DNA of 64,000 nt from Colwellia sp. (GTDB taxonomy: Bacteria; Pseudomonadota; Gammaproteobacteria; Enterobacterales; Alteromonadaceae). Each line of letters starts with the position of its first letter. Within the stretch, counting starts at the first letter, position 1. This document shows, piece by piece, positions 1,729-62,460 of this stretch. The stretch covers positions 496,001-560,000 of the forward strand of contig JABSOY010000005.1 in NCBI GenBank assembly GCA_013215385.1, in the 5' to 3' direction. A program made the translations under genes and the position numbers. A model generated the notes under the pieces. That model did no database searches and was not told the DNA's origin. It was given only the letters and a program-made list of their open reading frames with translations.

Positions 1729-4593
1729 ATGAAAAAAACTATAAACCTGCCAGAAATACTCATTCACCAACAACATAAAAGTTGTCAGCAGTTTAATGAG
1801 CAATATCCAAAAGCTGTTGTATGTTTATCAGCACAGCAATTAGCTGATTTTGAAAGCTCGCTAATGGTCAGCGATTTCATTTTAAATAGTGCGTTACAGT
1901 GTCCTGAAACGGTTGTTTCTCTATTTTTTACTGGTCGTGTTTATCAAGTTGAATGCCCTAATTATCAAACAATGCTTGCTGAATTATTAGCAGGTTGTGA
2001 AAGCGAAGCACAACTACATAAAATTTTAAGACAGTTTAGGTTGCAAGAGATGGTTAATATCGCTGTTGCTGATTTGTTATTTGAACTTGAGTTAACAGTG
2101 TCATTAGAGCGTTTATCTGAACTTGCTGATCAACTGATTTTAGCGGCATTAAATTGGCTGACATTGTTTTGTCGTGACAAGTGGGGAACACCTACTAGTA
2201 AAAATGGTGAAACTCAACAATTACTTGTTTATGGTATGGGAAAACTAGGCGGCAGAGAGTTAAATTTTTCCTCCGATATCGATCTTATTTTTACTTATCC
2301 TGAAATGGGTGAAACCCAAGGGGCTAGACGTAGCCTTGATAATCAGCAGTTTTTTACCCGATTAGCACAAAAACTTATCGCAGCTTTACATCAAAAAACA
2401 GCGGATGGTTTTGTCTATCGAGTTGATATGCGCTTACGGCCTTATGGTGAAAGTGGTCCGCTAGTGCTTACTTTTAATGCCATGGAAGATTATTACCAAG
2501 AGCAAGGCCGTGATTGGGAGCGTTATGCGATGCTTAAAGCTCGATTAATTGGTCAAGGAAAATATCATGACCAACTTTCAACCATGCTACGTCCTTTCGT
2601 TTATCGACGTTATATTGATTTTAGTGTTATTGATAGTTTACGCCGTATGAAGATGATGATCGCTCAAGAAGTCCGACGTAAACAATTAAAGAACAATATC
2701 AAATTAGGTGCTGGTGGTATTCGAGAAGTTGAATTTATCGTACAAGTTTTTCAACTGGTGCGTGGCGGACGAGTAAAAGAATTGCAACATCGACGTTTAT
2801 TAACTGTGCTGCCTATCTTAGTTGAAAAAGAAGTGATTAGCGCTGAAAATGAAGTTGTACTCACAACGGCTTATTGTTTTTTACGACGCGTAGAAAATAT
2901 CATACAAGCATTAAACGATCAGCAAACACAAACATTGCCTGACAATGAACTAGATCAAATGCGGTTATTATGGGCGCTTAACCATAAATGCTGTGAAACA
3001 TGGCCCGAATTTCTTAATTTTTTAGCTCAACAAATGAATGGCGTTCATCAGGAGTTTTGTGCACTTATTGGCGAAGATAGTCCTAATCATCAAGCTAAAG
3101 ATCAGCATTGGACCACTCTATGGGATAGCGATTGGTCTGATGAAGAGGGTACTGCCTGGGTAGCTCAAGTAAGTGTATTTGTTGATGCAAACAAAATATG
3201 GCAATTATTGGTTGAATTTAAAACGGGCATGAAAAATCGTAGTATCGGAAATCGAGGACGAGCAGTACTCGACAAACTAGTTCCTGTTTTAATGTGGCAT
3301 ATTCAGCAAGAACATAGTGATCACACCACGTTAGAACGTGTGTTAATCATTTTTAGCAAAATATCAACACGTACCGCTTATATCGAATTGTTATTCGAAA
3401 ACGAAGGTGCTTTAAAACATCTGATAAAATTATGTTATCGAAGTAGTTGGGTTGCCGAGCATATTGCTAAATATCCTATTTTATTAGATGAACTTATTGA
3501 TCCGACATTATTAAATAATCCTCCTGAGCTAAGTAGTTATGCCGTTGATTTAAGGCAAGTTATGTTGCGTATTCCTGAAGATGATCAAGAAGCACAAATG
3601 GATAGATTACGACAATTTAAACAAGCGCAACACTTGCGGATTGCTGCTGCTGACATTTGTGAAATATTACCCGTGACTAAAGTGAGTGATCATCTAACTG
3701 CTTTAGCCGAGGCGATTATTAATGAAGTCATCCATTTGGCTTGGCAACAAATGTCTGAACGTTTTGGTGTGCCTGAGTCTACCGTTGGCCAAGACCATAA
3801 AGGCTTTGCCGCTATAGCTTATGGGAAAATGGGCGGAATAGAACTTGGCTATAGTTCAGATTTAGATTTAGTTTTTGTGCATAATAGTCAAAGTGATGAA
3901 GTTACAACAGGCACAAAGCAGGTTCCTGCATTACAATTTTATATGAAGCTAGCCCAACGTATTATGCATATTTTTAATACTCGTATGGCAAGTGGAATTT
4001 TATATGAATTGGATATGCGATTACGACCATCAGGTAATTCTGGTTTATTAGTTGTACATATTGATAGTTTTGAAAAATATCAGCATGAAGAAGCTTGGAC
4101 ATGGGAACATCAAGCTTTAGTACGAACGCGAATGGTTTATGGTCATCAAGCATTAGCAAGTAAATTTATCGCTATTAGAAAAGCGATTATTAGTAAACCT
4201 CGTGAGCGAAGTCAAGTTCGTGCTGATGTTTTAGCGATGCGTGAAAAAATGCGTTTGCATTTAGATAAATCAACTATGGACAATGTGGATATTAAGCAAG
4301 GGCAGGGTGGCTTAGTCGATATTGAATTTTTAGTGCAGTTTTTAGTTTTAAGCGAAAGTGCGAGGCATAATGAACTTTGCCAATATTCTGATAATATTCG
4401 TTTGCTTAAACAACTAAAACATTGTCGTGTTATTAATGAAGAACAGCAAAAACAACTCGCCCAGTGTTATTGTAATTTACGTGATTTTGGCCATCATGCG
4501 ACATTAAAAAATGAGCAGCAGTTATTAAGTAACGTTGACTTTGCAGGTTTAGCAGCAAAAGTGAAGGCGATTTGCCAAACTATCTACCAGTAA
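1729..4593 (+). CDS. glnE: Bifunctional glutamine synthetase adenylyltransferase/deadenylase
   Basis: GlnE adds AMP to, and removes it from, a tyrosine of glutamine synthetase under control of PII protein and glutamine, and so sets nitrogen assimilation. The 954-residue product matches the usual length of about 946. Two nucleotidyltransferase domains are visible: the deadenylase motif YGMGKLGGRELNFSSDIDL near residue 167 and the adenylylase motif YGKMGGIELGYSSDLDLVF near residue 697. Both keep the metal-binding DxD, and each is followed by a conserved arginine segment (DMRLRPYGESG, DMRLRPSGNSG). A helical linker joins the halves. The ribosome site before the ATG is weak, so a slightly different start is possible. 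The gene stands alone, converging with the TcpQ-like gene only 29 bases downstream. The identification is secure. Confidence 0.97.
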   Translation: MKKTINLPEILIHQQHKSCQQFNEQYPKAVVCLSAQQLADFESSLMVSDFILNSALQCPETVVSLFFTGRVYQVECPNYQTMLAELLAGCESEAQLHKILRQFRLQEMVNIAVADLLFELELTVSLERLSELADQLILAALNWLTLFCRDKWGTPTSKNGETQQLLVYGMGKLGGRELNFSSDIDLIFTYPEMGETQGARRSLDNQQFFTRLAQKLIAALHQKTADGFVYRVDMRLRPYGESGPLVLTFNAMEDYYQEQGRDWERYAMLKARLIGQGKYHDQLSTMLRPFVYRRYIDFSVIDSLRRMKMMIAQEVRRKQLKNNIKLGAGGIREVEFIVQVFQLVRGGRVKELQHRRLLTVLPILVEKEVISAENEVVLTTAYCFLRRVENIIQALNDQQTQTLPDNELDQMRLLWALNHKCCETWPEFLNFLAQQMNGVHQEFCALIGEDSPNHQAKDQHWTTLWDSDWSDEEGTAWVAQVSVFVDANKIWQLLVEFKTGMKNRSIGNRGRAVLDKLVPVLMWHIQQEHSDHTTLERVLIIFSKISTRTAYIELLFENEGALKHLIKLCYRSSWVAEHIAKYPILLDELIDPTLLNNPPELSSYAVDLRQVMLRIPEDDQEAQMDRLRQFKQAQHLRIAAADICEILPVTKVSDHLTALAEAIINEVIHLAWQQMSERFGVPESTVGQDHKGFAAIAYGKMGGIELGYSSDLDLVFVHNSQSDEVTTGTKQVPALQFYMKLAQRIMHIFNTRMASGILYELDMRLRPSGNSGLLVVHIDSFEKYQHEEAWTWEHQALVRTRMVYGHQALASKFIAIRKAIISKPRERSQVRADVLAMREKMRLHLDKSTMDNVDIKQGQGGLVDIEFLVQFLVLSESARHNELCQYSDNIRLLKQLKHCRVINEEQQKQLAQCYCNLRDFGHHATLKNEQQLLSNVDFAGLAAKVKAICQTIYQ

Positions 4594-4622
4594 AACTAAA
4601 ATATAACCCTATATAATACAGA

Positions 4623-5303
4623 CTATCTCCGTCGTTTTTTTACCGGTAATAAAATACATTCTTCATCTAGGTAGGGGATAGGTAAATCAATTAATACCAG
4701 AGCACGTTGTTGATTACAAAAATAAACGTTAATACCTTCAGCGAAATGTCCTTCAACGGCTTTACCGACTTGATAGGCAGTTTTAATAATATCTTTATTA
4801 ATGCGAAAAGGGTCTTTAACAATAAAGTCACGATTTAACCACCAAATAACTTCTAAGCCTTCACTATTGGCATATTCAGATAGTTTTTGAAACAGTGTTT
4901 CGCCTAAACGAAAGGGATAGTTTTCATTACTACCACGCCAATTTTTACGTAATGGACGAGTAACCATACGACGTGCTTCAAGTAGTTTGACAATATCACC
5001 CTTGGGATCGGGTAGATAAACAATGTTATTACGAATTCTAGGACCTTTGCTGTTATCATCGCCATGTAAGTTGGCATAAAATCGAGATAATCCGTCGGCT
5101 GCAGCATTGCTACTTTTCTTTATGATAGTCGAGGGGGATTTTTTAATTTTTGCTTTGTCTGCTGGGTCAATCGCGACAACGTCTTCTGACTTAGTATTTT
5201 CTTTTTCTATAGCAGTAAACAATAACGCTTGGTTATCAATTAATAAAAGGGCCAAGGCAATTAAGACCGAGCCAAAAATAATATTACGTATCCAAAAACT
5301 CAT
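4623..5303 (-). CDS. Membrane-anchored protein with TcpQ-like C-terminal domain
   Basis: The 226-residue product begins with one hydrophobic segment (about residues 8-28) that looks like a signal anchor. It continues with a polar linker of about 80 residues and ends in a compact domain (about residues 110-220). That domain has the pattern LGETLFQKLSEYANSEGLEVIWWLNRDF..., a helix followed by a beta-rich fold. This resembles the toxin-coregulated-pilus biosynthesis Q (TcpQ/PilL-N-like) domain found in secretion and pilus accessory proteins that bind near secretins. No pilus genes lie beside it, so its partner is unknown. The 3' end nearly meets glnE, and a 12-bp inverted repeat lies just upstream of the start. 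The domain call is from memory and moderately sure; the biological role is not known. Confidence 0.6.
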   Translation of the reverse strand: MSFWIRNIIFGSVLIALALLLIDNQALLFTAIEKENTKSEDVVAIDPADKAKIKKSPSTIIKKSSNAAADGLSRFYANLHGDDNSKGPRIRNNIVYLPDPKGDIVKLLEARRMVTRPLRKNWRGSNENYPFRLGETLFQKLSEYANSEGLEVIWWLNRDFIVKDPFRINKDIIKTAYQVGKAVEGHFAEGINVYFCNQQRALVLIDLPIPYLDEECILLPVKKRRR

Positions 5304-5323
5304 AGAGGTTATCTTTGCTGTAA

Positions 5324-5366
5324 TTTCAGTATGGTTTAACTAATATAAGTATACACCATACTGAAA
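5324..5366. repeat. 12-bp perfect inverted repeat upstream of the TcpQ-like gene
   Basis: TTTCAGTATGGT at 5324-5335 is repeated in inverted form as ACCATACTGAAA at 5355-5366, with 19 AT-rich bases between. It lies between the end of the acyltransferase gene and the start of the TcpQ-like gene. It could be a terminator stem for the acyltransferase message, though no clear T-run follows, or a two-half operator for the downstream gene. Confidence 0.5.
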
Positions 5367-5389
5367 AGACAATATTTATACAATACCGA

Positions 5390-6328
5390 CTATTTATAAA
5401 GCGAGGGATCGTCTTCATTTGGCCGTGTTTTAAAACGGCGGTGCAGCCACATATATTGTTCAGGTTTAAATAAAATGGCTTTCTCTAACTCTTGATTAAT
5501 ACGGATAACGTCTGCTTCGTCATCACCCGTTGGGAAGTTTTCCATCATAGGTTTTATTTCTAGAGTATAACCACTGCCATCATCATTTCTTGTTGGTATA
5601 AGCATGTGATTCTGAACGTTTTTTTGCCTGGCGAAAATTAACGTGCCTGTGGTTGTTGCGGCATCTGGCACGGCAAAAAATGGCACGAATAAACTACGGT
5701 TTCGGCCATAATCTTGATCTGGTAAATAAACACAAACTTCTTTATCACGCAGTGCTTTCATTAATCCTTTAACGTCACGTTTACCTAACATGTATTTATT
5801 AGAGCGACCTCTACCTCTAAACTGAAAGAACTCCATCAATTGATTATTGTGAGGTCGATAAAAAACAACCATAGGGTGCCCTGTACCAATACCTCGACAG
5901 TTAATTTCTACACTCAAGTAGTGCATGGTTAACAATAATACACCTTTACCTTCTTGGTGTGCTTTCTCTAAATGCTCAAGGCCGATAACTTTAGTTTTTC
6001 TTCTGACCCGCCAATCTGGCCACCACCAGCCCATACCTGTTTCAAATAAGGCGATACCCGTATTCTCAAAGTTTATCTTTAAAATACGTTGATGCTCCTG
6101 TGCAGGCATCTCTGGAAAGCATAATTCAAGGTTACGTAATGCGATCTTTTTTCGGCTTGAACCTATTTTAAATAACAAGCGGCCCAGCATACGGCCCAGC
6201 ATTAACTGAAATTTATAAGGCGACCATGAAATAGTATAGAGAATAACTACACCAAGCCAAGTTAACCAATATTTAGGTAATAGAAAGGATATTTTAAAAT
6301 CAGGCTGTAATACTTTGTTTTTACTCAC
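5390..6328 (-). CDS. lpxL: Kdo-lipid A lauroyl/palmitoleoyl-type acyltransferase (LpxL family)
   Basis: The enzyme transfers an acyl chain from acyl-ACP onto Kdo2-lipid IVA at the inner face of the inner membrane, late in lipid A synthesis. The 312-residue length matches LpxL/LpxP (about 306). It has a single N-terminal hydrophobic anchor (about residues 18-34), the helix RKIALRNLELCFPE typical of the family, and the catalytic HX4E motif (HYLSVE) near residue 137. FYRPHNN and PDQDYG blocks follow, as in LPLAT enzymes. The start codon is GTG at 6328; an in-frame TGA lies just upstream, which limits other choices. It is divergent from hldE, another lipopolysaccharide gene, with 84 bases between. 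LpxL and the cold-type LpxP cannot be separated by eye. Confidence 0.88.
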   Translation of the reverse strand: MSKNKVLQPDFKISFLLPKYWLTWLGVVILYTISWSPYKFQLMLGRMLGRLLFKIGSSRKKIALRNLELCFPEMPAQEHQRILKINFENTGIALFETGMGWWWPDWRVRRKTKVIGLEHLEKAHQEGKGVLLLTMHYLSVEINCRGIGTGHPMVVFYRPHNNQLMEFFQFRGRGRSNKYMLGKRDVKGLMKALRDKEVCVYLPDQDYGRNRSLFVPFFAVPDAATTTGTLIFARQKNVQNHMLIPTRNDDGSGYTLEIKPMMENFPTGDDEADVIRINQELEKAILFKPEQYMWLHRRFKTRPNEDDPSLYK

Positions 6329-6412: not shown

Positions 6413-7840
6413 ATGAAATTAGACATTCCCGCTTTTGCGCAAGCAAGTGTATTGGTTGTAGGCGATATTATGTTAGATCAATATTGGTACGGCCCAACGC
6501 AACGTATTTCACCAGAGGCTCCAGTTCCAATAGTTAAAATAACTAAGGACGAACGTCGTCCTGGTGGCGCAGCTAACGTAGCATTAAATATTGCTTCGAT
6601 TGGCGGAAAAGTAACCTTGGCAGGGATTACTGGCGTAGATGACGCGGCTCAACATTTACAGACACAGTTAACCGCATTAAATATTAATTGTGAATTTGAT
6701 CAACAAAGTCACATTCCCACGATCACTAAATTACGTGTCATGAGCCGCAATCAGCAACTTATTCGTTTAGACTTTGAAGAATCATTTCATGATGTAAATA
6801 AAACTAAATTAGAAGAAAAAGTTGCCGCTCAGATAGCACTACACGACTTACTCTTATTATCAGATTACAGTAAAGGTACTTTGTCTGCTGTGCAAAACTT
6901 GATTGCAATAGCGAAAAAACAAGGCAAGGCAGTATTGGTTGATCCGAAAGGAACTGATTTTGAGCGTTACCGTGGTGCGACGTTATTAACGCCAAACTTG
7001 TCTGAGTTTGAAGCCGTTGTCGGCGAATGTAAAACAGAAAGTGATATTGTCAGTAAAGGACAAATATTACTTGAGCATCTTGATTTAGAAGCGATGTTAG
7101 TGACCCGTAGTGAACAAGGTATGACTTTATTGCGTCGAGATCACGAAGAGTTTCACCTACCAACACAAGCGCGTGAAGTGTATGACGTAACGGGGGCAGG
7201 GGATACCGTTATTGCCACCTTAGCTTTAGCTATCGCAGCAAAAGCTGAATATACTCAAGCCAGTGCTTTAGCCAATATTGCCGCAGGTATTGTAGTGGGT
7301 AAATTGGGGACATCAACGGTGAGTGAAGCTGAACTTTTAGCTGAAATATCGACAGGACCAGAAAGTGGTTTTGGAGTGCTGAGTGAAGAACAATTAAAAA
7401 TTGCCGTGAAATTAGCAAAAGCACGTGGTGAAAATATTGTTATGACTAATGGTTGTTTTGATATTCTCCATGCTGGACATGTTTCGTATCTAACACATGC
7501 CGGCACCTTAGGAAGTCGACTCATTGTCGCTGTTAACGACGATGCTTCAGTGAAACGACTAAAAGGTAGTGGTCGACCGGTAAATCCTACAGACAGACGT
7601 ATGGCTGTGCTCGCAGGGTTAGGCGCTGTTGACTGGGTAGTACGTTTTTCAGAAGATACCCCTCAGCGTATTATTGCTAATATTCTCCCAGACATTCTCG
7701 TTAAAGGCGGAGACTATAAAGTGGCAGATATCGCCGGTGGTAGTGAAGTTATGGCTAATGGCGGAGAGGTAAAAGTACTGAATTTTGAAGACGGTATTTC
7801 AACTACTGAAATTATTAATACTATTCGACTTTCAGAGTAA
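6413..7840 (+). CDS. hldE: Bifunctional heptose 7-phosphate kinase / heptose 1-phosphate adenylyltransferase
   Basis: HldE makes ADP-heptose for the lipopolysaccharide inner core by phosphorylating D-glycero-beta-D-manno-heptose 7-phosphate at O-1 and later adding AMP. At 475 residues it is the standard fused length. The N-terminal half is a PfkB/ribokinase kinase with [12 protein letters not shown] near residue 49 and the catalytic DVTGAGDT near residue 257. The C-terminal half is a cytidylyltransferase-like domain with [14 protein letters not shown] near residue 346. The gene ends in a strong hairpin terminator and is divergent from the lipid A acyltransferase. The identification is secure. 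Confidence 0.97.
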
Positions 7841-7855
7841 ATAGATACTCCTCAT

Positions 7856-7885
7856 AAAAAAAGCAGCTAAATTAGCTGCTTTTTT
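7856..7885 (+). terminator. Rho-independent terminator after hldE
   Basis: AGCAGCTAA and TTAGCTGCT form a 9-bp inverted repeat flanked by an A-run on the left and a T-run on the right. It lies 15 bases after the hldE stop and 51 bases before the end of the convergent rdgC. The symmetric A and T tracts suggest it can work in both directions. Confidence 0.88.
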
Positions 7886-7936
7886 GTTATAAGATAAACG
7901 CTAGCCTTCAACATTTTATTCTCGAAAGTTAACCTT

Positions 7937-8863
7937 CTACTTTTCACTCTCTAAATAATCAGTCGCTTTAACATTAAATTCAGATAATAGGTCGTTAATT
8001 AGACGATTGATTTCACCGGCCATTAACGCAAAGTCTGCATCTATTTTGGCTACGACATCATCACTGTCAATATCATCATTTTGTTCTTGTAACACATCAA
8101 AGAATTTCAAACGCTTAATCGCTAAATCATCACAAAGAATAAACGACATCGCTTCATCCCATTCTAGGGCTAATTTTACGACATATTTATCAGCATCTAA
8201 ATGGGTTTTAATTTCTTCGCTGGCAAGATCTTGATTTTTAACACGAACAACTGCGCCGTCATCACCGAGCCCATGAAACTCGGCTTCCATACCTAAGGTA
8301 AAGTTATCTCCGATACTTTTTTCATTTAACCAGTCAGTCATTAATTCATCAGGAGCAGTTTCTGGTGAAACACTCGTTACTGGTAAAGTGCCAATAACTT
8401 TACGCAATAAGGCTAATAAATCTTCTGCTTTACCGCGACTACCTGAGTTGACCACAATAAGGTTATGTTCAGCATTAATGTAGGCATGAGTATCTGTTAC
8501 GCGGGAAAAGGCACGTGGCAATAATTCAAAAATAATATCTTCTTTATATTGTTCTCTTTCTTTTTTCGTTGCACTACGCCCTTGCTCTACTTCAAGTAGT
8601 GCTATTTTTGCTTCAATCATGTCTTTGACAACAGGAGCTGGAAGGATTTTTTCTTCTTTACGAGCACAAATTAGAAAATTGCCGTTAGCCGAATGAACCG
8701 TTGAATGGCCATGTTTACCTATGGCGTTCACCCAACCAAAATGAGATTGCTCAGTTGAGCCACAAGGGGTAAATAAATGTTCAGCTAAGTGTTTTTCTAA
8801 CTGATCTTCTGATAATTCAAAAGGACGAGTAAATGCGAAAAAATATAAGTTTTTGAACCACAT
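7937..8863 (-). CDS. rdgC: Recombination-associated protein RdgC
   Basis: RdgC is a ring-shaped DNA-binding protein of the nucleoid that limits RecA action and helps replication when fork-restart pathways are missing. The 308-residue product has the characteristic start MWFKNLYFFAFTRPFELS, the LFTPCGSTEQSHFGWV block, the FELLPRAFSRVTDTHAYI block and an acidic C-terminal half. Length and motifs fit the family (about 303). An AGGAAA site lies just upstream of the ATG. It is transcribed alone, convergent with hldE. Confidence 0.95.
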   Translation of the reverse strand: MWFKNLYFFAFTRPFELSEDQLEKHLAEHLFTPCGSTEQSHFGWVNAIGKHGHSTVHSANGNFLICARKEEKILPAPVVKDMIEAKIALLEVEQGRSATKKEREQYKEDIIFELLPRAFSRVTDTHAYINAEHNLIVVNSGSRGKAEDLLALLRKVIGTLPVTSVSPETAPDELMTDWLNEKSIGDNFTLGMEAEFHGLGDDGAVVRVKNQDLASEEIKTHLDADKYVVKLALEWDEAMSFILCDDLAIKRLKFFDVLQEQNDDIDSDDVVAKIDADFALMAGEINRLINDLLSEFNVKATDYLESEK

Positions 8864-8995
8864 AGGAAGTTTCCTGTGCCGCTGTTATTAGATAACTACG
8901 GCTGACAAATTGAAAAAAGAGCAACATAATAACTTAAATGTTTACGATAAGCACTGATTAGCTTGCTCTTTAGGTTTGCGTGCTTTGATAGGATT

Positions 8996-10741
8996 TTAAC
9001 GCATGTCATCAAATTCAATGTTATAGCTTAATCCCTGTCCTTCTTTACTATGCGCAGTAATTGAACCATTTAAGGTGTCGGTAACGAGTTCATTAATAAT
9101 ATGAGTGCCTAACCCGGTACCACCAGTACCCGATTTTGTTGTGTAAAAGGGATCGAAAAGTAACGACAATTTACTCTCTGGCACACCAACGCCATTATCG
9201 TGGTAATGCAAATGTAGCCGATCAGCTTTTAAATCAGCAGTAATGGTTATTACTCCGTGACTTATGCCTTCAAATCCATGAAGAAGCGAGTTAATAATTA
9301 AGTTAGTAAATATTTGCGAAATCGCACCGGGGTGACAATAAACTTCAATGTTATCAAGGCAATTAACATTGATTACATGCTTGGTTTTCTTTAGTTTTGG
9401 ATGGAGCGACTGTATTATTTCATCAAGATATTGAGCAATATTGACCTTGCGTGTTTTATTACTGGTTTGATCAACCGCCACTTGTTTATAGCTGGTAATA
9501 AGGTCTGAGGCACGGTTAAGGTTATTTAATAATAACTGCAAACTTTGATCTACGTTTTTAGTAAAGTCATCTAAAGTGCGTTTCGATAGTTTTTGCTCGT
9601 CGATGTCTTTTTGCAGATAAACGAGCAAATCGGCTAAATAACTCGTTGATGTAATACTAACGCCAATTGGCGTATTAATTTCATGATAAACCTCCGCAGA
9701 AAGTTTACCTAGCACAGCCATTTTCTCTGCATCAAGCAGGCGTTCTTGCGCTTTATTTAACTCGGCAATTGAACTCTTTAGTTCATCGTTCGTTTTTATT
9801 AAGGTTTGTTCTGTTTGACTACGACGATGGTTTTCGGCTTTAAGTTGTTTTTGCTGTTCGATTAACTCATGTTGTTGTTTATTCATTTCTAGCATAGTCT
9901 TGCTTAATGACGATGTTTTTCTAGCAACTTCTTGCTCCAATTGCAGGTTTTGTTCATCAAGTTTGTGATTAGCTGCTAAAATCTCTTGTTGCGCACTACT
10001 TAGTTCATTTTGGTGTTGGATGAGTTCATCAAGTAAATTGTTATAAGTGGTTTGCAATATCGTCAACTCATTATGTTCGTAGGTCATAATGTGCAGTTTT
10101 GATGCTTCGGGATCGTCAATATCAAAATGGTTAATTTGTTCGGTAAGTTCATTTAATGGATTGGTTAATAAATGAGAAAAAGCCAGTGAAAATAAAATGA
10201 CTAATGCGGCTGTTTTTACCATAGCATTGCCAATTAAAAAATAAATACCGACTTCAATACGCTCAAAAATAACCTTATTACTAGATAATAGAGTCACTGT
10301 ACCTACTTTAGTCGTCCGCCCTGAAAACTGAAAAATAAGCGGGAAGGAATGGCCAAAAAGTCCGTCAGAAAGGGAGTCTATTGTTAAATGTTCGTTGTTG
10401 TCTGCGGTATCATTTTGCGTGTTAAATGGTTCGTTAACGGGGATTTCCCCTAATCGTGCAATTATTTGTTCGTTTTCATCCATCACGGTAATGCCTTTTA
10501 TCATAGGTATTGCAACTAACCCTTCGGCAATATCTATGGCTTGGTGAGTGTTCAACTCCCAAACAGCACGAGTTAAACTACCCGTAAAGGTTTTTTCTAG
10601 GGTAAGTAACTCACTATTAATATGACTTTTAGTATTTATGTACTCCGCGCCAATTTGCACACAAGTGACTATAAAGGTTAAAACAAAATAAACCGATAAA
10701 ACTCGAGTCAGTAATTTACGAGATATGCTAGTGACCTTCAT
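8996..10741 (-). CDS. Orphan membrane sensor histidine kinase
   Basis: The 581-residue protein has a first membrane segment at about residues 11-31, a periplasmic sensing region to about 170, a second membrane segment to about 195, a HAMP-like stretch (NPLNELTEQINHFD) and a long Gln/Glu-rich coiled coil at about 225-340. The phospho-acceptor domain has EVYHEINTPIG with His near 355. The HATPase domain has NLIINSLLHGF, DNGVGVP and a GGTGLGTHI lid. The periplasmic part does not match a domain I can name. No response regulator lies next to it, so its partner is elsewhere. Its transmitter half closely resembles that of the MASE3 kinase at 34.4 kb; both keep the unusual string KQVAVDQ. It is divergent from the porin. 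Confidence 0.85.
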   Translation of the reverse strand: MKVTSISRKLLTRVLSVYFVLTFIVTCVQIGAEYINTKSHINSELLTLEKTFTGSLTRAVWELNTHQAIDIAEGLVAIPMIKGITVMDENEQIIARLGEIPVNEPFNTQNDTADNNEHLTIDSLSDGLFGHSFPLIFQFSGRTTKVGTVTLLSSNKVIFERIEVGIYFLIGNAMVKTAALVILFSLAFSHLLTNPLNELTEQINHFDIDDPEASKLHIMTYEHNELTILQTTYNNLLDELIQHQNELSSAQQEILAANHKLDEQNLQLEQEVARKTSSLSKTMLEMNKQQHELIEQQKQLKAENHRRSQTEQTLIKTNDELKSSIAELNKAQERLLDAEKMAVLGKLSAEVYHEINTPIGVSITSTSYLADLLVYLQKDIDEQKLSKRTLDDFTKNVDQSLQLLLNNLNRASDLITSYKQVAVDQTSNKTRKVNIAQYLDEIIQSLHPKLKKTKHVINVNCLDNIEVYCHPGAISQIFTNLIINSLLHGFEGISHGVITITADLKADRLHLHYHDNGVGVPESKLSLLFDPFYTTKSGTGGTGLGTHIINELVTDTLNGSITAHSKEGQGLSYNIEFDDMR

Positions 10742-42585: not shown

Positions 42586-42771
42586 GATGGTATAAATTTA
42601 TTAAGGGCGTTAAGTCACGCTAGATTACCTTAAAATTTAGAAAGTTAACATTGCTTATAAAAACAAACTGCATAGTAAGATCATAAAGAAGTTCTATGAT
42701 ACTTTTTTCTTTGTATATTTACCGATAGAATAGCGGGAATTTTTAACGATTAATTCAACGTAGGAAATTTC

Positions 42772-43323
42772 ATGGCATCGTTACAAGACCAGTTACTAAA
42801 GGCTGGGTTATCAACTAAGCAAAAAGCACGACAAGCAAATAGTGATCAACGTAAAAAAAACAAGCAAAAGCGTAGCGGTGTTGCTATTGAAAAAACCTTG
42901 CAAGAACAAGTTAAACAAGACTTGGAGCAAGAGAAAAAAGACAAGTTTGCAAAAGATATCGCCCTTAACGAAGAAAAAAAGCAACAACTTGCTGAAAAAG
43001 AAAATGTGTTACGGATTCAACAAATACTTCAACATCACCAAATTCAAAATGCGAAAGGTGAAAGCGAGTATAACTACACCTTTAATAATAAAATTAAAAA
43101 ATTATTGGTTAACTCAGTAACACACAAAGCACTTGTTAATGGCCGTTTAGCAGTATGTGGTTTAGCTGATACAAGTTATTTAGTTACCGCTGAAACTGCT
43201 GAAAAAGTAGCAAGCTTAGATGCGAAAGTTGTCTTAGTACAAAACGACAAAGTGGAAAGTGAAGTTATTGAAGATAACGACCCATATGCAGATTACCAAA
43301 TCCCTGATGATTTAATATGGTAA
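42772..43323 (+). CDS. DUF2058 (YaiL-type) nucleoprotein
   Basis: The 183-residue product opens MASLQDQLLKAGLSTKQKARQ, the strongly conserved start of DUF2058 (YaiL). A highly charged coiled coil rich in Lys, Gln and Glu (residues 20-85) follows. The C-terminal part has YNYTFNNKIKKLLV, LVNGRLAVCGL and a final DPYADYQIPDDLIW. The family has been annotated as nucleoprotein- or polynucleotide-associated, but no clear function is known. It stands alone, followed by a glutaredoxin gene. Confidence 0.9.
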   Translation: MASLQDQLLKAGLSTKQKARQANSDQRKKNKQKRSGVAIEKTLQEQVKQDLEQEKKDKFAKDIALNEEKKQQLAEKENVLRIQQILQHHQIQNAKGESEYNYTFNNKIKKLLVNSVTHKALVNGRLAVCGLADTSYLVTAETAEKVASLDAKVVLVQNDKVESEVIEDNDPYADYQIPDDLIW

Positions 43324-55485: not shown

Positions 55486-56769
55486 TTAGTTAAAACGACT
55501 TAAACAAAACGGCGTGACATCGATGTCAGTTGGTTGTTTAGTTATTAGCTGGCCAATGAGTTTTCCTGTAATGGCTCCTTGAGTTAACCCTAAATGTTGA
55601 TGGCCTAAGGCAAGAAATATATTGCTATGCTTTGGCGCTTGGCCAATAACAGGTAATGAATCAGGAAGTGAAGGACGGTGTCCCATCCACTTTTGACCTT
55701 CTTTTGCTGTTTGTGCATTTAATTCAGGTAAAATCGTGAGTACCTGCTGGGCATTTTTAAAGAGCATATCGGCTCGTTTCATATTCGCTTGTTGTTTTAA
55801 GCCCGCATATTCAACCGTGCCAGCTAACCGTAAACCATGTGCCATGGGTGTCATAATGAATTTTCGTTCTGCAGATGCTACCGGACGTGACAATTTATCT
55901 TTATTTTTACTAGGCGGTAAATCTAAGCTATATCCTCGCTCTGCCTCTATGGGTAAAGTGTAACCTAAGGGTTTTAAAAGTGCTTTTGACCAAGCCCCAC
56001 TCGCAATGACCACTTGGTCAAATATCAAGGTTTCTTCTTTTGTTGTTAAATTAACCCCACTTCGATTGTGGCTAATGTTAAGTACCTCAGCTTGTTTGTA
56101 CTCACAGCCTTTGCTAAAAGCTAACTTAGCCAGTTGTGTACAAATAGCGGAAGGATCTGCACTATGCCCGACCTCAGTAAAATAGAGCGATGCTTGAATA
56201 TTTTTACTCAAATTGGGTTCTAATAATAACGTTTGTTGCCGATCGAGTAATAACACGCTAATACCGGCATTTTTATACTGTTCAAAATATCGCTTGATGG
56301 TTTTATCTGAACTTTTTTCGAAGACTAATAAGCTGCCTTTTAACGTTAATAATGCTTCAGCTTTTGCTTCTTTTAAAAGTGGCTGGTAATAACTAATGGC
56401 ATTTTTATTAAGTGTTTTTATTGCTGCACTGTTTTTTGAACGTTTACTGGCCAGCATATTCCATATAAATTGACCAAACCAAGGCAATGCCTTAGGCAAA
56501 TATGAGGCAGACAAAGACACAGGACCTAAGGGATCAAGTAATAGTTTTGGAAACTGCCATAACAAGTTTGGCTCCGCCAATGGAAATACTTGCTCGGTGG
56601 CGAAATGTCCTGCGTTTGCTTTTGAGCAACCTTCGCCAATGCCTAACTTATCAATAAGTGTTACTTGAAAGCCAAGTGACTGTAATTCAAGCGCACAATT
56701 AATACCTATGATACCAGCACCGATCACGGCAATGTTTTTTTCAGCGTTACCAATATTTAATGTTGTCAT
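55486..56769 (-). CDS. DadA-like FAD oxidoreductase, probable D-hydroxyproline dehydrogenase
   Basis: The 427-residue product has the FAD-binding GAGIIGINCALELQSLGFQVTLID near residue 17. The DadA-family blocks follow: GCSKANAGHFATEQVFPLAEP, VVIASGAWSKALLKPLGYTLPIEAERGYSLDL and WMGHRPSLPDSLPVIGQAP. In hydroxyproline catabolism such an enzyme oxidises cis-4-hydroxy-D-proline, the epimerase product, to 1-pyrroline-4-hydroxy-2-carboxylate. A general D-amino acid dehydrogenase is the alternative. It lies 38 bases after the dehydratase gene on the same strand. The substrate is inferred from its neighbours. Confidence 0.85.
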   Translation of the reverse strand: MTTLNIGNAEKNIAVIGAGIIGINCALELQSLGFQVTLIDKLGIGEGCSKANAGHFATEQVFPLAEPNLLWQFPKLLLDPLGPVSLSASYLPKALPWFGQFIWNMLASKRSKNSAAIKTLNKNAISYYQPLLKEAKAEALLTLKGSLLVFEKSSDKTIKRYFEQYKNAGISVLLLDRQQTLLLEPNLSKNIQASLYFTEVGHSADPSAICTQLAKLAFSKGCEYKQAEVLNISHNRSGVNLTTKEETLIFDQVVIASGAWSKALLKPLGYTLPIEAERGYSLDLPPSKNKDKLSRPVASAERKFIMTPMAHGLRLAGTVEYAGLKQQANMKRADMLFKNAQQVLTILPELNAQTAKEGQKWMGHRPSLPDSLPVIGQAPKHSNIFLALGHQHLGLTQGAITGKLIGQLITKQPTDIDVTPFCLSRFN

Positions 56770-56807: not shown

Positions 56808-57848
56808 TTAACGCAATAAAAAACCTTGCGGAAAAATGTCATTTTTATCGACTAAAAACTGATGGATACCGGTAATAAAAGCTCTACCACTAACACGGGG
56901 AATAACAGCCTCTTTGTTAAAGTAGTTAATTGACTCTTCTATGTTCACCGTCATCTCTCCACCAGTAATACTTTCAATGATGACTTTTTCACCCATGGTT
57001 AGACCTTCTTTAGTGGCTAATAAAGCAGCACGTGCACTTACGCCTGTGCCGGTTGGTGAACGGTCGAGTTCACCTTCTGCAAAGATGCAGACATGACGAG
57101 AATGAGAGGCTGAACGTGCAGTTTTCTTAGAGTGAAAAATAACGCCATATAAAAAACTAAGGTCATCTTCAAGAGGGTGTTTTATGTCGTAATCAGCCAT
57201 TACTGCTCTTTTAATGGCTCGTCCTGCTGCTATCAAGACTTGGCTATTTGCTGCGTCGCAAGTTAAGTTTAAATCATCAGCATCAACAAAAGCATAATAA
57301 GCACCACCGAAGGCAATGTCGTAATTAACGCTACCTAACCCGTTAATATCTACTTGTTGATTGAGTGTTTCAACAAAAGCAGGAACGTTATCAAAACTTA
57401 CCGATAGCTGGTTATTCTTTATTTCCGCATAGGCTTTAATGAAACCAGCCGGGGCATCAATGCCAATATATTCACCAGTCTCAGGCATGGCGAGAATTTT
57501 CGTTTCTATCGCAACTGATACCGCAGCAATAATGCCATGACCACACATGCTGGAATAACCTTCGTTGTGCATAAATAAAATGCCAAAGGTCGCTTTTTCT
57601 GTGCATGGCTCGGTAATAAGGGCGCCGTACATATCTCCATGGCCACGTGGCTCATACATTAAAAATTGACGGTAACTATCTAAGTGCTCCGTTAAAAACT
57701 GACGCTTGTCTAAAATGGTGTCACCGATTATTTCCGGATAACCGCCGGTAATAATTCGTAATGGCTCGCCTTCTGTGTGGGCGTCAATACTGGTAACTGA
57801 AAGATATTTTTCTGAATTAAGCGCTAAATTTTCATGGATGAACTGCAT
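56808..57848 (-). CDS. Proline racemase family, probable trans-3-hydroxy-L-proline dehydratase
   Basis: The 346-residue product belongs to the proline racemase family (DAHTEGEPLRIITGGYP, EPRGHGDMYGAL). The first catalytic residue is Cys (SSMCGHG, near residue 101). The second site reads DRSPTGTGVSARAAL, Thr near 267 where racemases and 4-hydroxyproline epimerases have Cys. The Cys/Thr pair is the mark of trans-3-hydroxy-L-proline dehydratase, as in the human enzyme, which gives 1-pyrroline-2-carboxylate. A reductase to turn that into proline is not in the window. It shares an operon with the FAD oxidoreductase. The substrate call depends on this residue logic. Confidence 0.85.
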   Translation of the reverse strand: MQFIHENLALNSEKYLSVTSIDAHTEGEPLRIITGGYPEIIGDTILDKRQFLTEHLDSYRQFLMYEPRGHGDMYGALITEPCTEKATFGILFMHNEGYSSMCGHGIIAAVSVAIETKILAMPETGEYIGIDAPAGFIKAYAEIKNNQLSVSFDNVPAFVETLNQQVDINGLGSVNYDIAFGGAYYAFVDADDLNLTCDAANSQVLIAAGRAIKRAVMADYDIKHPLEDDLSFLYGVIFHSKKTARSASHSRHVCIFAEGELDRSPTGTGVSARAALLATKEGLTMGEKVIIESITGGEMTVNIEESINYFNKEAVIPRVSGRAFITGIHQFLVDKNDIFPQGFLLR

Positions 57849-57876: not shown

Positions 57877-57904
57877 TTGTACAACGAGAATAATTGTATA
57901 CAAT
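57877..57904. promoter_or_regulatory. Putative GntR-family operators in the divergent hydroxyproline promoter
   Basis: Two nearby palindromes, TTGTACAA (57877-57884) and ATTGTATACAAT (57893-57904), lie between the divergent dehydratase and deaminase genes. TTGTxTACAA-type sites are typical of FCD-subfamily GntR regulators, and such a gene is part of this locus. Confidence 0.6.
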
Positions 57905-58021: not shown

Positions 58022-58938
58022 ATGAAAGAGATTAACTGGCAAGGCGTATACCCAGCAGTAACTACCCAATATTTTGATGATATGTCGATTAATTTCGAAG
58101 CGACAAAAAAATATGGCTGATAGTTTGATTAATGAAGGTGTACATGGAATTATCGCTTTGGGTACTGTGGGCGAGAATTGTTCACATACACAAGCTGAAA
58201 AACGTGAAATCCTTGAAGCGGTAAAAGAAGTGGTTGCCGGTCGAGTGCCAGTACTTTCTGGTGTTGCTGAAACAACAACCAAGTTTGCTATTGAATATTG
58301 TCAAATGTGTGAAGAAGTTGGCATTGATGGTTTAATGGTTTTACCTGGCATGGTTTATCGTTCAAGCGAACGTGAAGCAATTAATCATTACCAGTAAATT
58401 GCAGGTAACTGTGGTTTACCTCTTATGATTTACAATAACCCGGTGACTTACGGTGTTGATGTATCTATTGAAGGCATGGCTATTTTAGCCAACGAACCGA
58501 CCATCGTTTCAGTAAAAGAAGCGACTGAAGATACCCGTCGAATTTCTAAATTATATGCTGAATTTGATGATCGATTTATCGTATTGTGGTGTTGATGACA
58601 TCGCGCTAGAAAGCTTAATGTTAGGTTGTACGGGTTGGATTTCAGGCTTAACTAATGTTTTCCCACAAGAATCTGTAGCAATTTACAAATTAGCACAGCA
58701 AGGCCGTTACCAAGAAGCGCTTGAAATCTGGCGTTGGTTCTTACCTTTATTACGTTTAGACACTATTCCAACACTTGTCTAATGTATTAAATATAGTGAA
58801 CAGTTGGCAGGTCGTGGTAGTGAAGTTGTGCGTGAACCGCGGTTACCTCTTGCCGGCGAAGAACGTGTAAGAGTTGAAAAATTATATAACGATGCTTTAG
58901 CAACACGAATAGATTTGTCAAAATTCAATTTAGATTAA
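58022..58938 (+). pseudogene. Broken DHDPS-family 1-pyrroline-4-hydroxy-2-carboxylate deaminase
   Basis: Joined across frames, the stretch encodes a DHDPS/NAL-superfamily protein of about 305 residues: WQGVYPAVTTQYF, then LINEGVHGIIALGTVGEN, MIYNNPVTYGV (active Tyr), SVKEATED (Schiff-base Lys) and a normal C-terminus. Four lesions break it. There is a frameshift in the A-run near 58105-58113 (stop TGA at 58118), an in-frame TAA at 58395, a frameshift near 58584-58586 (stop TGA at 58593), and an in-frame TAA at 58780 that looks like CAA changed to TAA. By family and place it would be the deaminase giving alpha-ketoglutarate semialdehyde. The lesions and the otherwise good residues suggest recent decay. 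Confidence 0.9.
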
Positions 58939-58963
58939 TATTGTTAAGTTGAATGGTTAAAAG

Positions 58964-59008
58964 CTAAAGCCTCATCTACAAGCCCTATACTTGTAGGCGG
59001 GGCTTTAG
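58964..59008 (+). terminator. Hairpin between the pseudogene and the epimerase gene
   Basis: CTAAAGCC pairs with GGCTTTAG and, inside, CTACAAG pairs with CTTGTAG, giving a two-part hairpin. No T-run follows, so it may be an mRNA processing or stabilising stem rather than a full terminator. Confidence 0.5.
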
Positions 59009-59049
59009 TCTTAACAAGACAGGAATAATATGGACAGTAAAGGTAGAAC

Positions 59050-60120
59050 ATGAACAAAGGCACATTTTTTTGTATAGACGCACATACTTGTGGCAACCCA
59101 GTTCGTTTGGTTACCAGTGGTCACCCTAATTTAAAAGGGCAAACCATGAGTGAGAAACGACAGGATTTTTTAGAGAATCATGATTGGATCCGTCAAGGAT
59201 TGATGTTTGAACCACGCGGTCACGATATGATGTCTGGTGCATTTTTATATCCGCCTTGTAGTGAAAATGCTGATGCGTCCATTTTATTTATTGAAACATC
59301 GGGTTGTTTACCCATGTGCGGCCACGGCACAATTGGTACAGTGACCTCTGGCTTAGAAAGCGGATTGTTAACACCAAAAGTTGCTGGGAAATTAACGCTT
59401 GATGTACCCGCTGGGCAAATTGAAGTGGAGTACACCTTACAAAGTGAATCTGATGAAAGTCAGTTGCATGACAATCCCATAACTAAAGTAGATTCTGTGA
59501 AAATTTACAATGTTCCAGCCTATTTATCACACCAAGATATTGAACTTAATATTGAAGGATTAGGACGGATAACCGTTGATGTTTCATATGGAGGCAATTA
59601 TTACGTGATAGTTGAGCCACAAGAAAATTTTCCTGGGATTGATCAATGGACGGCAAATGAAATACTGCATTGGAGTCCCCTTGTTCGTGCAGCGGCAAGT
59701 AAGGTCGTTACCTGTATTCATCCTGAAGACCCTAGTGTAAACGGTGTTTCTCATGTCTTATGGACAGGAAAACCTAAACACGAAAATTCAGACGGAGCTA
59801 ATGCAGTCTTTTACGGTGAAAAAGCGCTCGACAGATCGCCCTGTGGAACAGGCACAAGCGCGCGTATGGCACAACTTTACGCGAAAGGGCAGTTAAGCTT
59901 AGGCGATAGTTTTGTTCATGAAAGTTATATCGGTAGTCAGTTTATTGGAAAAATAGAACAAATTGTTGAGCTCAGCTGTGACAGCACCTATCCACAAGGG
60001 GTGAAAGGTAAAATATCTGCGATAAAGCCTAGCATTCAAGGTTGGGCAAAAGTATTTGGTAAAAACTGTATCACGATTGACGATGATGACCCGTATGCTT
60101 TTGGTTTTGTTGTTACATAA
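59050..60120 (+). CDS. 4-hydroxyproline 2-epimerase (proline racemase family)
   Basis: The 356-residue product has both catalytic cysteines of the racemase fold: LPMCGHG near residue 88 and DRSPCGTGTSARMAQL near 264. Opening blocks are DAHTCGNPVRLVTSGHP and EPRGHDMMSGAFLYPP. The Cys/Cys pair plus the hydroxyproline context point to conversion of trans-4-hydroxy-L-proline into cis-4-hydroxy-D-proline. Proline racemase is the alternative, but the neighbours argue against it. AAGG lies five to six bases before the ATG. It is between the broken deaminase and the aldehyde dehydrogenase, all on one strand. Confidence 0.88.
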   Translation: MNKGTFFCIDAHTCGNPVRLVTSGHPNLKGQTMSEKRQDFLENHDWIRQGLMFEPRGHDMMSGAFLYPPCSENADASILFIETSGCLPMCGHGTIGTVTSGLESGLLTPKVAGKLTLDVPAGQIEVEYTLQSESDESQLHDNPITKVDSVKIYNVPAYLSHQDIELNIEGLGRITVDVSYGGNYYVIVEPQENFPGIDQWTANEILHWSPLVRAAASKVVTCIHPEDPSVNGVSHVLWTGKPKHENSDGANAVFYGEKALDRSPCGTGTSARMAQLYAKGQLSLGDSFVHESYIGSQFIGKIEQIVELSCDSTYPQGVKGKISAIKPSIQGWAKVFGKNCITIDDDDPYAFGFVVT

Positions 60121-60164: not shown

Positions 60165-61697
60165 ATGAATATTACCGGAAAAAATTTAATCGCAGGCGAA
60201 TGGTCTGGCGATACAACTAATGGTTTTTCTGCAATGAATGCCGTTACTAATCAAGCAATGAACGAAAAATTTGCTGACGCTAGCGAACAAGAAATTGACC
60301 AAGCTATTGGCAAAGCAAACCAAGCATTTTATTCTTATAGCCAATTAAGTGCAGAAAAACGTGCGTTATTTTTACGTACTATCGGTGAGCAAATTCTTGC
60401 CCTTGGGGACGATTTAGTTACTATGGCGTGTGCCGAAACTGGCTTGCCTGCGATGCGAATTCAAGGTGAACGTGGCCGTACTATCGGTCAACTTGGCTTA
60501 TTCGCTAACTTATTAGAACAAGGTGAATATCAAGCGGTTGTCGATTTAGCCGATGCGAATCGCCAGCCTTTACCTAAGCCAGAAACACGCTTAGGTTATT
60601 TGCCACTTGGCGCGGTCGCTGTTTTTGCTGCCAGTAATTTCCCATTAGCATTTTCAACAGCAGGCGGCGATACGGCTTCGGCACTTGCTGCCGGTTGTCC
60701 GGTTGTAATGAAAGCACATGCAGCACATCCTGGAACGGCAGAATTAGTTGCTCAGGCGATCAATAAAGCGATTGAAATTTGCAGTATCGATGCCGGTGTT
60801 TTCTCGCTGATTCAAGGGAAAAACTACGGTATTTCTAGTCAAATAGTGACACATCCACTTATTAAAGCGGTTGGTTTTACCGGGTCTGAGCGTGTCGGTA
60901 TGATTTTACAACGACAAATAAATGAACGTGCAGAGCCAATTCCATTTTACGGTGAACTTGGCAGTGTTAACCCGCAATTTATTTTAGCGAACAAATTGGC
61001 TGATGATGCTCAAGGATTAGCACAAGCATTAGTCGCCTCATTAATGATGGCGCAAGGGCAGTTTTGTACCAGTCCTGGAATTTGGGCTTACGTTAGTGAT
61101 GAAAATACACCAGTGTTTGAAAAGTCAGCGGCGCAAGCGATCAGTGAAACGTCAGCAGGTGTTATGTTAACGCCGAGTATGGCGACTTCATATAATAGCA
61201 TTGTCGCCCAATGGCAGAATATCTCGGGTGTTGAATGTTTAGCTCAAGGCAAAAAACCAGAAAAAGGCCAAGAACATTTTTGTTCAGCAGCACTGTTTGC
61301 CACCGATTTAGCAACATTTAAAGCTAATGAAGCATTACATGAAGAAGTCTTTGGTTCGAGTGCACTAATTGTCCGTTGTGACAGTCAAGCGCAGCTGATG
61401 GAATTTATTAATTTACTTAATGGCAGCTTAACGGCAAGTATTCATGCCAGTGAGCAGGATGTTAATATTGCTAAACAAGTTGCCTTAAGCGCGGCTCATA
61501 AAGTGGGTCGTTTAATCTATAATCAAATGCCAACTGGCGTTGAAGTATGTGCCTCTATGAACCATGGTGGACCGTTTCCAGCTTCTACCCAAATAAGAAC
61601 TACCTCGGTGGGCAGTGAAGCCATTAAACGTTTTCAGCGACCTATTTGTTATCAAAATATGCCTGATGAGCTGTTACCAAGTTTACTGAAAAGTTAA
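60165..61697 (+). CDS. Alpha-ketoglutarate semialdehyde dehydrogenase
   Basis: The last step of the 4-hydroxyproline route oxidises 2,5-dioxopentanoate to 2-oxoglutarate. The 510-residue aldehyde dehydrogenase has NLIAGEWSG at the start, cofactor-region blocks AVFAASNFPLAFSTAGGDTASALAAGCPVVMKAHAAHPGTAELV and GFTGSERVG, Glu in GELGSVNPQF, and the catalytic Cys in GQFCTSPG. The GQFCT-x-PG form and the ETRLGYLPLGAVAVF region are those of the KGSADH subgroup. It follows the epimerase by 44 bases. Confidence 0.92.
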   Translation: MNITGKNLIAGEWSGDTTNGFSAMNAVTNQAMNEKFADASEQEIDQAIGKANQAFYSYSQLSAEKRALFLRTIGEQILALGDDLVTMACAETGLPAMRIQGERGRTIGQLGLFANLLEQGEYQAVVDLADANRQPLPKPETRLGYLPLGAVAVFAASNFPLAFSTAGGDTASALAAGCPVVMKAHAAHPGTAELVAQAINKAIEICSIDAGVFSLIQGKNYGISSQIVTHPLIKAVGFTGSERVGMILQRQINERAEPIPFYGELGSVNPQFILANKLADDAQGLAQALVASLMMAQGQFCTSPGIWAYVSDENTPVFEKSAAQAISETSAGVMLTPSMATSYNSIVAQWQNISGVECLAQGKKPEKGQEHFCSAALFATDLATFKANEALHEEVFGSSALIVRCDSQAQLMEFINLLNGSLTASIHASEQDVNIAKQVALSAAHKVGRLIYNQMPTGVEVCASMNHGGPFPASTQIRTTSVGSEAIKRFQRPICYQNMPDELLPSLLKS

Positions 61698-61791
61698 CTT
61701 TTCCGCATATAAAGTGGCTAATATCTACTAGCCGCTTTTGTTTAGCTGATAAATCCTTATAATGACTGTACACTTTCAAGAGAAGTCTTTT

Positions 61792-62460
61792 ATGAGCATA
61801 GTTTACAAAACCCGAACGCAGTTAGTTGTTGAAACCCTTAGAGAGAAGATTTTAAGTGGTGAGATTAAAGCGGGGCAACCTTTACGCCAAGCGGCATTAG
61901 CAGAAGAATTAAATGTTAGCCGTATACCCGTACGTGAAGCGTTATTGCAACTTGAAGCGGAAGGTTTAGTTTCTTTTGAACCTCATAAAGGTGCGACGGC
62001 TACCGAGCTTACAGCCAGCCAAGTAGATGAATTATTTGAATTAAGAGCTATGCTCGAAGCTGATTTATTGGCTTCGTCTATCCCGCATATCAGTGACGAA
62101 AAACTGGCCGAAGCCACTGAGCTTTTATCTCGATTAGATAAAGCGCTGGGTAAAGAAAATGCGGCGAATACTTGGAGTGAGTTAAATTCTGACTACCATA
62201 ATTGTTTGTATTCAGGTGCGAATCGACCACAAACTCAAGACTTAGTAAACACGTTAAATAAAAATGCCGACCGCTATATTCGTATGCATTTATTATGGGC
62301 TGGCGGGATTTCTAAAGCTGAGTCTGAGCACAACGAGCTATTAGCCCTATGTAAAGCGCGCGATGTCGAGAAGTCAGTTGCCTTACTCAAACAGCATATT
62401 CTTGGTTCACGTGACGAGATAAAAGAATTTTTGAGTGAACGTGAGCGAGCTGCAGAATAA
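61792..62460 (+). CDS. GntR-family (FCD-type) regulator of the hydroxyproline locus
   Basis: I choose the ATG at 61792, with GAGAAG upstream, over the ATG at 61762; the product is then 222 residues. It has the winged helix-turn-helix (TLREKILSGEIKAGQPLRQAALAEELNVSRIPVREALLQLEAEGLV). An all-helical FCD ligand domain follows (ELFELRAMLEADLL, NSDYHNCLYSGANRP, HNELLALCKARDVEKSV). It probably binds hydroxyproline or a pathway intermediate and the palindromes at 57877-57904. A TGTACA lies just before the chosen start and may allow autoregulation. Confidence 0.88.
   Translation: MSIVYKTRTQLVVETLREKILSGEIKAGQPLRQAALAEELNVSRIPVREALLQLEAEGLVSFEPHKGATATELTASQVDELFELRAMLEADLLASSIPHISDEKLAEATELLSRLDKALGKENAANTWSELNSDYHNCLYSGANRPQTQDLVNTLNKNADRYIRMHLLWAGGISKAESEHNELLALCKARDVEKSVALLKQHILGSRDEIKEFLSERERAAE

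Follow-up and report, generated by a model that had tools for sequence, protein, structure and literature searches.

The gene for the hydroxyproline deaminase HypD in the analysed window (the whole stretch of 64 kb) is highly likely to be a recent pseudogene without a substitute in the window's genome (G000), while elsewhere a distant protein of the same superfamily, here called X, very probably replaces HypD as the deaminase. Hydroxyproline is an amino acid of collagen, and the deaminase step of its use is very probably a point at which the pathway repeatedly swaps enzymes, with the HypD of the window belonging to the wave of losses but having received no substitute. The step joins the D-hydroxyproline oxidase to the semialdehyde dehydrogenase, as the earlier note correctly held. 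HypD is a known enzyme, the Pyr4H2C deaminase (Watanabe 2012, as cited in PMC5144071; eLife 2014, PMC4113996), and the window gene is its decayed orthologue at the same locus.

The HypD pseudogene occupied positions 58022-58938 (+) and was legible only by joining pieces from three frames in a three-frame translation. Both pieces, which contained stops, scored over the cut-off for PF00701, the DHDPS-family profile, and outside the lesions they were 93-96% identical to the intact HypD of two congeners (G005 and G002). Alignment showed four lesions, and the congener genes were intact at all four sites. The first frameshift was an A7 run (58105-58111, +) with one base more than in the intact congeners, and the second, at 58580-58592 (+), had 2 bases fewer than in the congeners, between 58585 and 58586. 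The two in-frame stops, both TAA, stood at 58395-58397 (+), a glutamine codon in congeners, and at 58780-58782 (+), a glutamine codon in relatives. The earlier note had described a decayed hydroxyproline deaminase gene with two frameshifts, two in-frame stops and otherwise well-kept residues, and the alignments bore this out. Translation and alignment showed that no open reading frame could encode the enzyme, and a full barrel is impossible with these lesions, whereas the intact HypD of relatives was predicted to fold with a mean pLDDT of 90. An inverted repeat of the AAAGCC...GGCTTT type was observed at 58955-59020, between the HypD remnant and the epimerase gene, and is perhaps an attenuator or mRNA-processing element.

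The remnant was linked to genes for the epimerase, a presumed D-hydroxyproline oxidase and a presumed alpha-ketoglutarate semialdehyde dehydrogenase (KGSADH). The order of the locus was oxidase (-), a Cys/Thr protein of the proline racemase family (-), HypD (+), epimerase (+), semialdehyde dehydrogenase (+) and GntR regulator (+). Intact genes included the FAD oxidase/dehydrogenase presumed to be the D-hydroxyproline oxidase (55486-56769, -; PF01266 and locus position), 4-hydroxyproline 2-epimerase or HypE (59050-60120, +; NF010578 at 556 bits against a cut-off of 376, with the Cys/Cys pair in MCGHG/DRSPCGTG) and the aldehyde dehydrogenase presumed to be KGSADH (60165-61697, +; PF00171, locus position and a GQFCT motif), which scored under the NCBIfam cut-offs. 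The GntR/FCD regulator (61762-62460, +; PF00392 and PF07729) was conserved in the locus of relatives and is likely HypR-like. The remaining protein (56808-57848, -) had the proline-racemase fold with a Cys/Thr pair (MCGHG/DRSPTGTG), and its best NCBIfam match was NF045511 at 336 bits, under the curated cut-off of 540. It looks like a trans-3-hydroxyproline dehydratase because that activity has Thr in place of the second Cys of proline racemase (PMC4113996). A homologue of the dehydratase's partner, pyrroline-2-carboxylate reductase, was intact elsewhere in the window's genome, with a one-mismatch operator upstream. The trans-3-hydroxyproline branch of dehydratase and reductase needs no HypD and looks intact, so that the locus would serve two branches, of which only the trans-4 one would be broken. 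The earlier note's otherwise intact pathway locus stood as regards the flanking genes, which were open and kept their active-site motifs in the epimerase, dehydratase and dehydrogenase, but the idea of a single pathway did not.

The palindrome ATTGTATACAAT in the divergent promoter (57893-57904) probably serves the GntR (HypR-like) regulator as its operator. It was perfect in the window and before 10/10 HypD genes of relatives, was the sole match in the 64-kb window when up to 1 mismatch was allowed, and agreed with the TKGT/ACMA core that PMC6608401 quotes for GntR operators of the FadR type.

Comparison with congeners, as the earlier note had proposed, showed that G005 kept all hydroxyproline genes. 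G003 kept the dehydratase and reductase, and its HypD had an internal deletion of ~440 bp and a 1-bp deletion. These lesions differ from those of the window and the loss is therefore independent; within this one genus, HypD went in at least two independent events, with the rest of the locus staying. G002 showed the reverse pattern, having lost the trans-3 branch: HypD was kept, the dehydratase was absent and the reductase was broken. Neither epimerase nor HypD was found in G001 and G004, which had reductase remnants only. Pseudogenes of the pyrroline-2-carboxylate reductase (OCD family) were located in G002 (L176, C84:123000-134000) and G004 (L177, C15:83000-94000), and the upstream operator was still present before the one in G002.

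The absence of a substitute in G000 was judged on an assembly of 40 contigs with a completeness of 100. The genome-wide PF00701 search yielded two other DHDPS-family genes, one DapA-like and one in a lysA/dapD operon; neither was HypD, and a second HypD elsewhere in the genome was rejected. An overlooked X was rejected as well, as the only signal from G000, where neither a match nor a remnant was seen, was a weak cross-match to its HypD pseudogene. The earlier note had left it that use of trans-4-hydroxyproline was either lost or carried by another copy. With neither a second HypD nor X in the genome, the other copy falls away and loss is the branch that the data favour. HypD being the only trans-4 deaminase in the genome, the pathway should stop at 1-pyrroline-4-hydroxy-2-carboxylate, and trans-4-hydroxyproline use is predicted to be blocked in this strain.

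The decay of HypD is very recent. In a codon model with five species, omega of HypD was 0.021 on the window branch against a background of 0.017, and since it was not raised, selection must have constrained HypD over almost the whole of that branch. Omega of the neighbours was 0.034 for the epimerase, 0.044 for the dehydrogenase, 0.059 for the oxidase and 0.024 for the regulator. The same model showed no relaxed selection on the remaining pathway genes of G000, a result that is uninformative given the recent decay: constraint on the neighbours says nothing yet on whether they still matter.

The distribution of HypD was first surveyed at loci anchored on the epimerase. HypD was repeatedly missing or reduced to remnants while the epimerase, oxidase and semialdehyde dehydrogenase persisted. 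Almost all HypD-less genomes carried X, a 323-aa DHDPS-family protein recognised in a PF00701 search of 24 genomes. HypE was present in 98 of 399 genomes of the window's family, and among these 63 had HypD, 29 had X, 0 had both and 6 had neither (Fisher 3e-19, uncorrected for kinship and thus overstating independence, since the genomes are related). Flavobacteriaceae, which entered the survey via a Polaribacter locus, gave 121 genomes with HypE, with a HypD-type match in 104, X in 13, both in 0 and neither in 4. Overall, HypE was kept and HypD was absent in all X genomes (42/42). The six genomes of the window's family with neither gene were G000 and G003 with their broken HypD, G070 where the dehydrogenase was also lost, G026 with epimerase and regulator only, and G135 and G215, whose assemblies were 80% and 93% complete. 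G000 and G003 lost HypD without gaining X and are genuine breaks.

X is presumably the substitute Pyr4H2C deaminase of the relatives. Its match to the HypD profile had a probability of 99.9% (E 6e-32) at 28% identity; GTxGEN, YNNP, GVD and the lysine all lined up, and X kept the Schiff-base lysine and the catalytic tyrosine. X resembles HypD in superfamily, catalytic residues, motifs and, in relatives, operator and operon slot, but differs in its low identity, its extra length (~20 residues), its mobility, its never occurring together with HypD and its absence from the window's genome. X scored below all NCBIfam cut-offs. Its predicted structure was of low confidence, with a mean pLDDT of 57 and Foldseek matches to generic DHDPS/NAL folds only, and was given no weight in the argument; a sequence search of solved structures gave none closely related to either X or HypD. 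No description of X was found in the open-access papers searched.

In Flavobacteriaceae, X stood directly before KGSADH, epimerase and oxidase, which is the slot of HypD in other species; three genomes of this family had HypD remnants in the slot and X nearby. HypD remnants co-occurred with X in genomes of two phyla. Gammaproteobacterial X was often far from the hydroxyproline locus, and the palindrome preceded it with ≤2 mismatches in 28/29 cases (in 27 of them no more than 51 nt from the start), compared with 25/606 control windows. The epimerase, oxidase and dehydrogenase were all intact at most X loci examined. The Polaribacter operon (L100) also contained two conserved genes (4272-6008 and 7037-9304; 578 and 755 aa) between KGSADH, HypE and the oxidase, and both recurred in several Flavobacteriaceae.

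X moved recently between genera by horizontal transfer. Third-codon identity of X reached 96% between genera where that of HypE was 45%, and Polaribacter and gammaproteobacterial X were ~82% identical compared with ~61% for HypE. A quick tree of HypE needed 12 changes between HypD and X, at least 5-6 of them forced by well-supported branches. The proposed course is that X arrives by horizontal transfer in marine Gammaproteobacteria and Flavobacteriaceae, comes to sit under the hydroxyproline operator in gammaproteobacteria and would take over deamination before the resident HypD decays; the order, with X usually first, is inferred. G000 and G003 lost HypD and received no X. The pattern is like non-orthologous (xenologous) gene displacement in that an incoming gene would take the step and the resident decays in place, with remnants in two phyla, but it differs in G000, where the resident HypD decayed without an incoming gene.

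Sequencing or assembly errors, with HypD intact in the strain, are a very improbable source of the lesions. One lesion does sit in the A7 run, and four lesions next to hardly any excess missense change slightly exceed the expectation from neutral decay (about 0.3 nonsense changes alongside 5 neutral missense; P about 0.04). However, the two stops are substitutions at glutamine codons and the 2-bp deletion lies outside a homopolymer. HypD alone was truly disrupted among the genes aligned to the window (42 from G005 and 40 from G002), the window sequence is not a generally error-ridden assembly, and G003 and many relatives lost HypD independently. The two other disruption flags were rejected as read-through upstream of a start codon; at 42703-43320, a suspected second broken gene, the stop lies upstream of the start codon. 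With the decay taken as real, a third, unrecognised enzyme could still perform the deaminase step in G000 and G003 and keep the pathway working. The epimerase, oxidase and dehydrogenase of G000 stay open and constrained, which a long-dead pathway would not need, and X would be an example of a distant protein able to take over the step. Such an enzyme is unlikely, since G000 had no third DHDPS-family candidate, the decay is too recent for the constraint on neighbours to inform, and G070, without HypD and X, also lost the dehydrogenase as a dead pathway would. Recency explains the constraint on the neighbours in G000, as a third deaminase would too.

It is also quite unlikely that X, rather than being a deaminase, serves hydroxyproline or collagen metabolism in some other way, and that the absence of HypD from X genomes means loss of trans-4-hydroxyproline use. 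The deaminase role is predicted, and the identity to HypD and the NCBIfam scores given above leave room for such a role. Against it stand the presence of HypE in every X genome with HypD in none (0/42), the intact pathway genes at most X loci, the filling of HypD's slot before KGSADH in Flavobacteriaceae and the retained lysine, tyrosine, GTxGEN and YNNP, all of which argue for X as the substitute deaminase.

Pathway prediction for marine collagen and hydroxyproline turnover depends on finding HypD, and genomes without it are called incomplete (PMC7883544). The published Colwellia collagen and hydroxyproline clusters have the same pathway genes as here, and the deaminase was noted as missing; the authors read the pathway as incomplete (PMC7883544), whereas X offers a candidate explanation, and the missing deaminase may be X. 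If X is the deaminase, many HypD-less genomes would be complete and an uncharacterised DHDPS-like family would gain a function. Genomes of two phyla that hold both remnants of the old gene and an intact substitute would then show gene displacement caught in progress and raise the question of what makes the replacement of one deaminase by another recur. The genome of the window is the opposite outcome, with one hydroxyproline branch lost and the other kept.

Finally, three further loci were observed. An Aquimarina locus (L113) in general decay had a HypD remnant with a stop, a truncated oxidase and no X. Colwellia maritima MSW7 (L059) had a HypD remnant, KGSADH in three pieces and no X, with other DHDPS-family genes in the genome, which points either to a pathway that is dead or to an assembly prone to errors. 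In G281 (L174), a TAA was present at the end of the HypD match; this was not counted as a loss, as the frame was otherwise open (302 aa).
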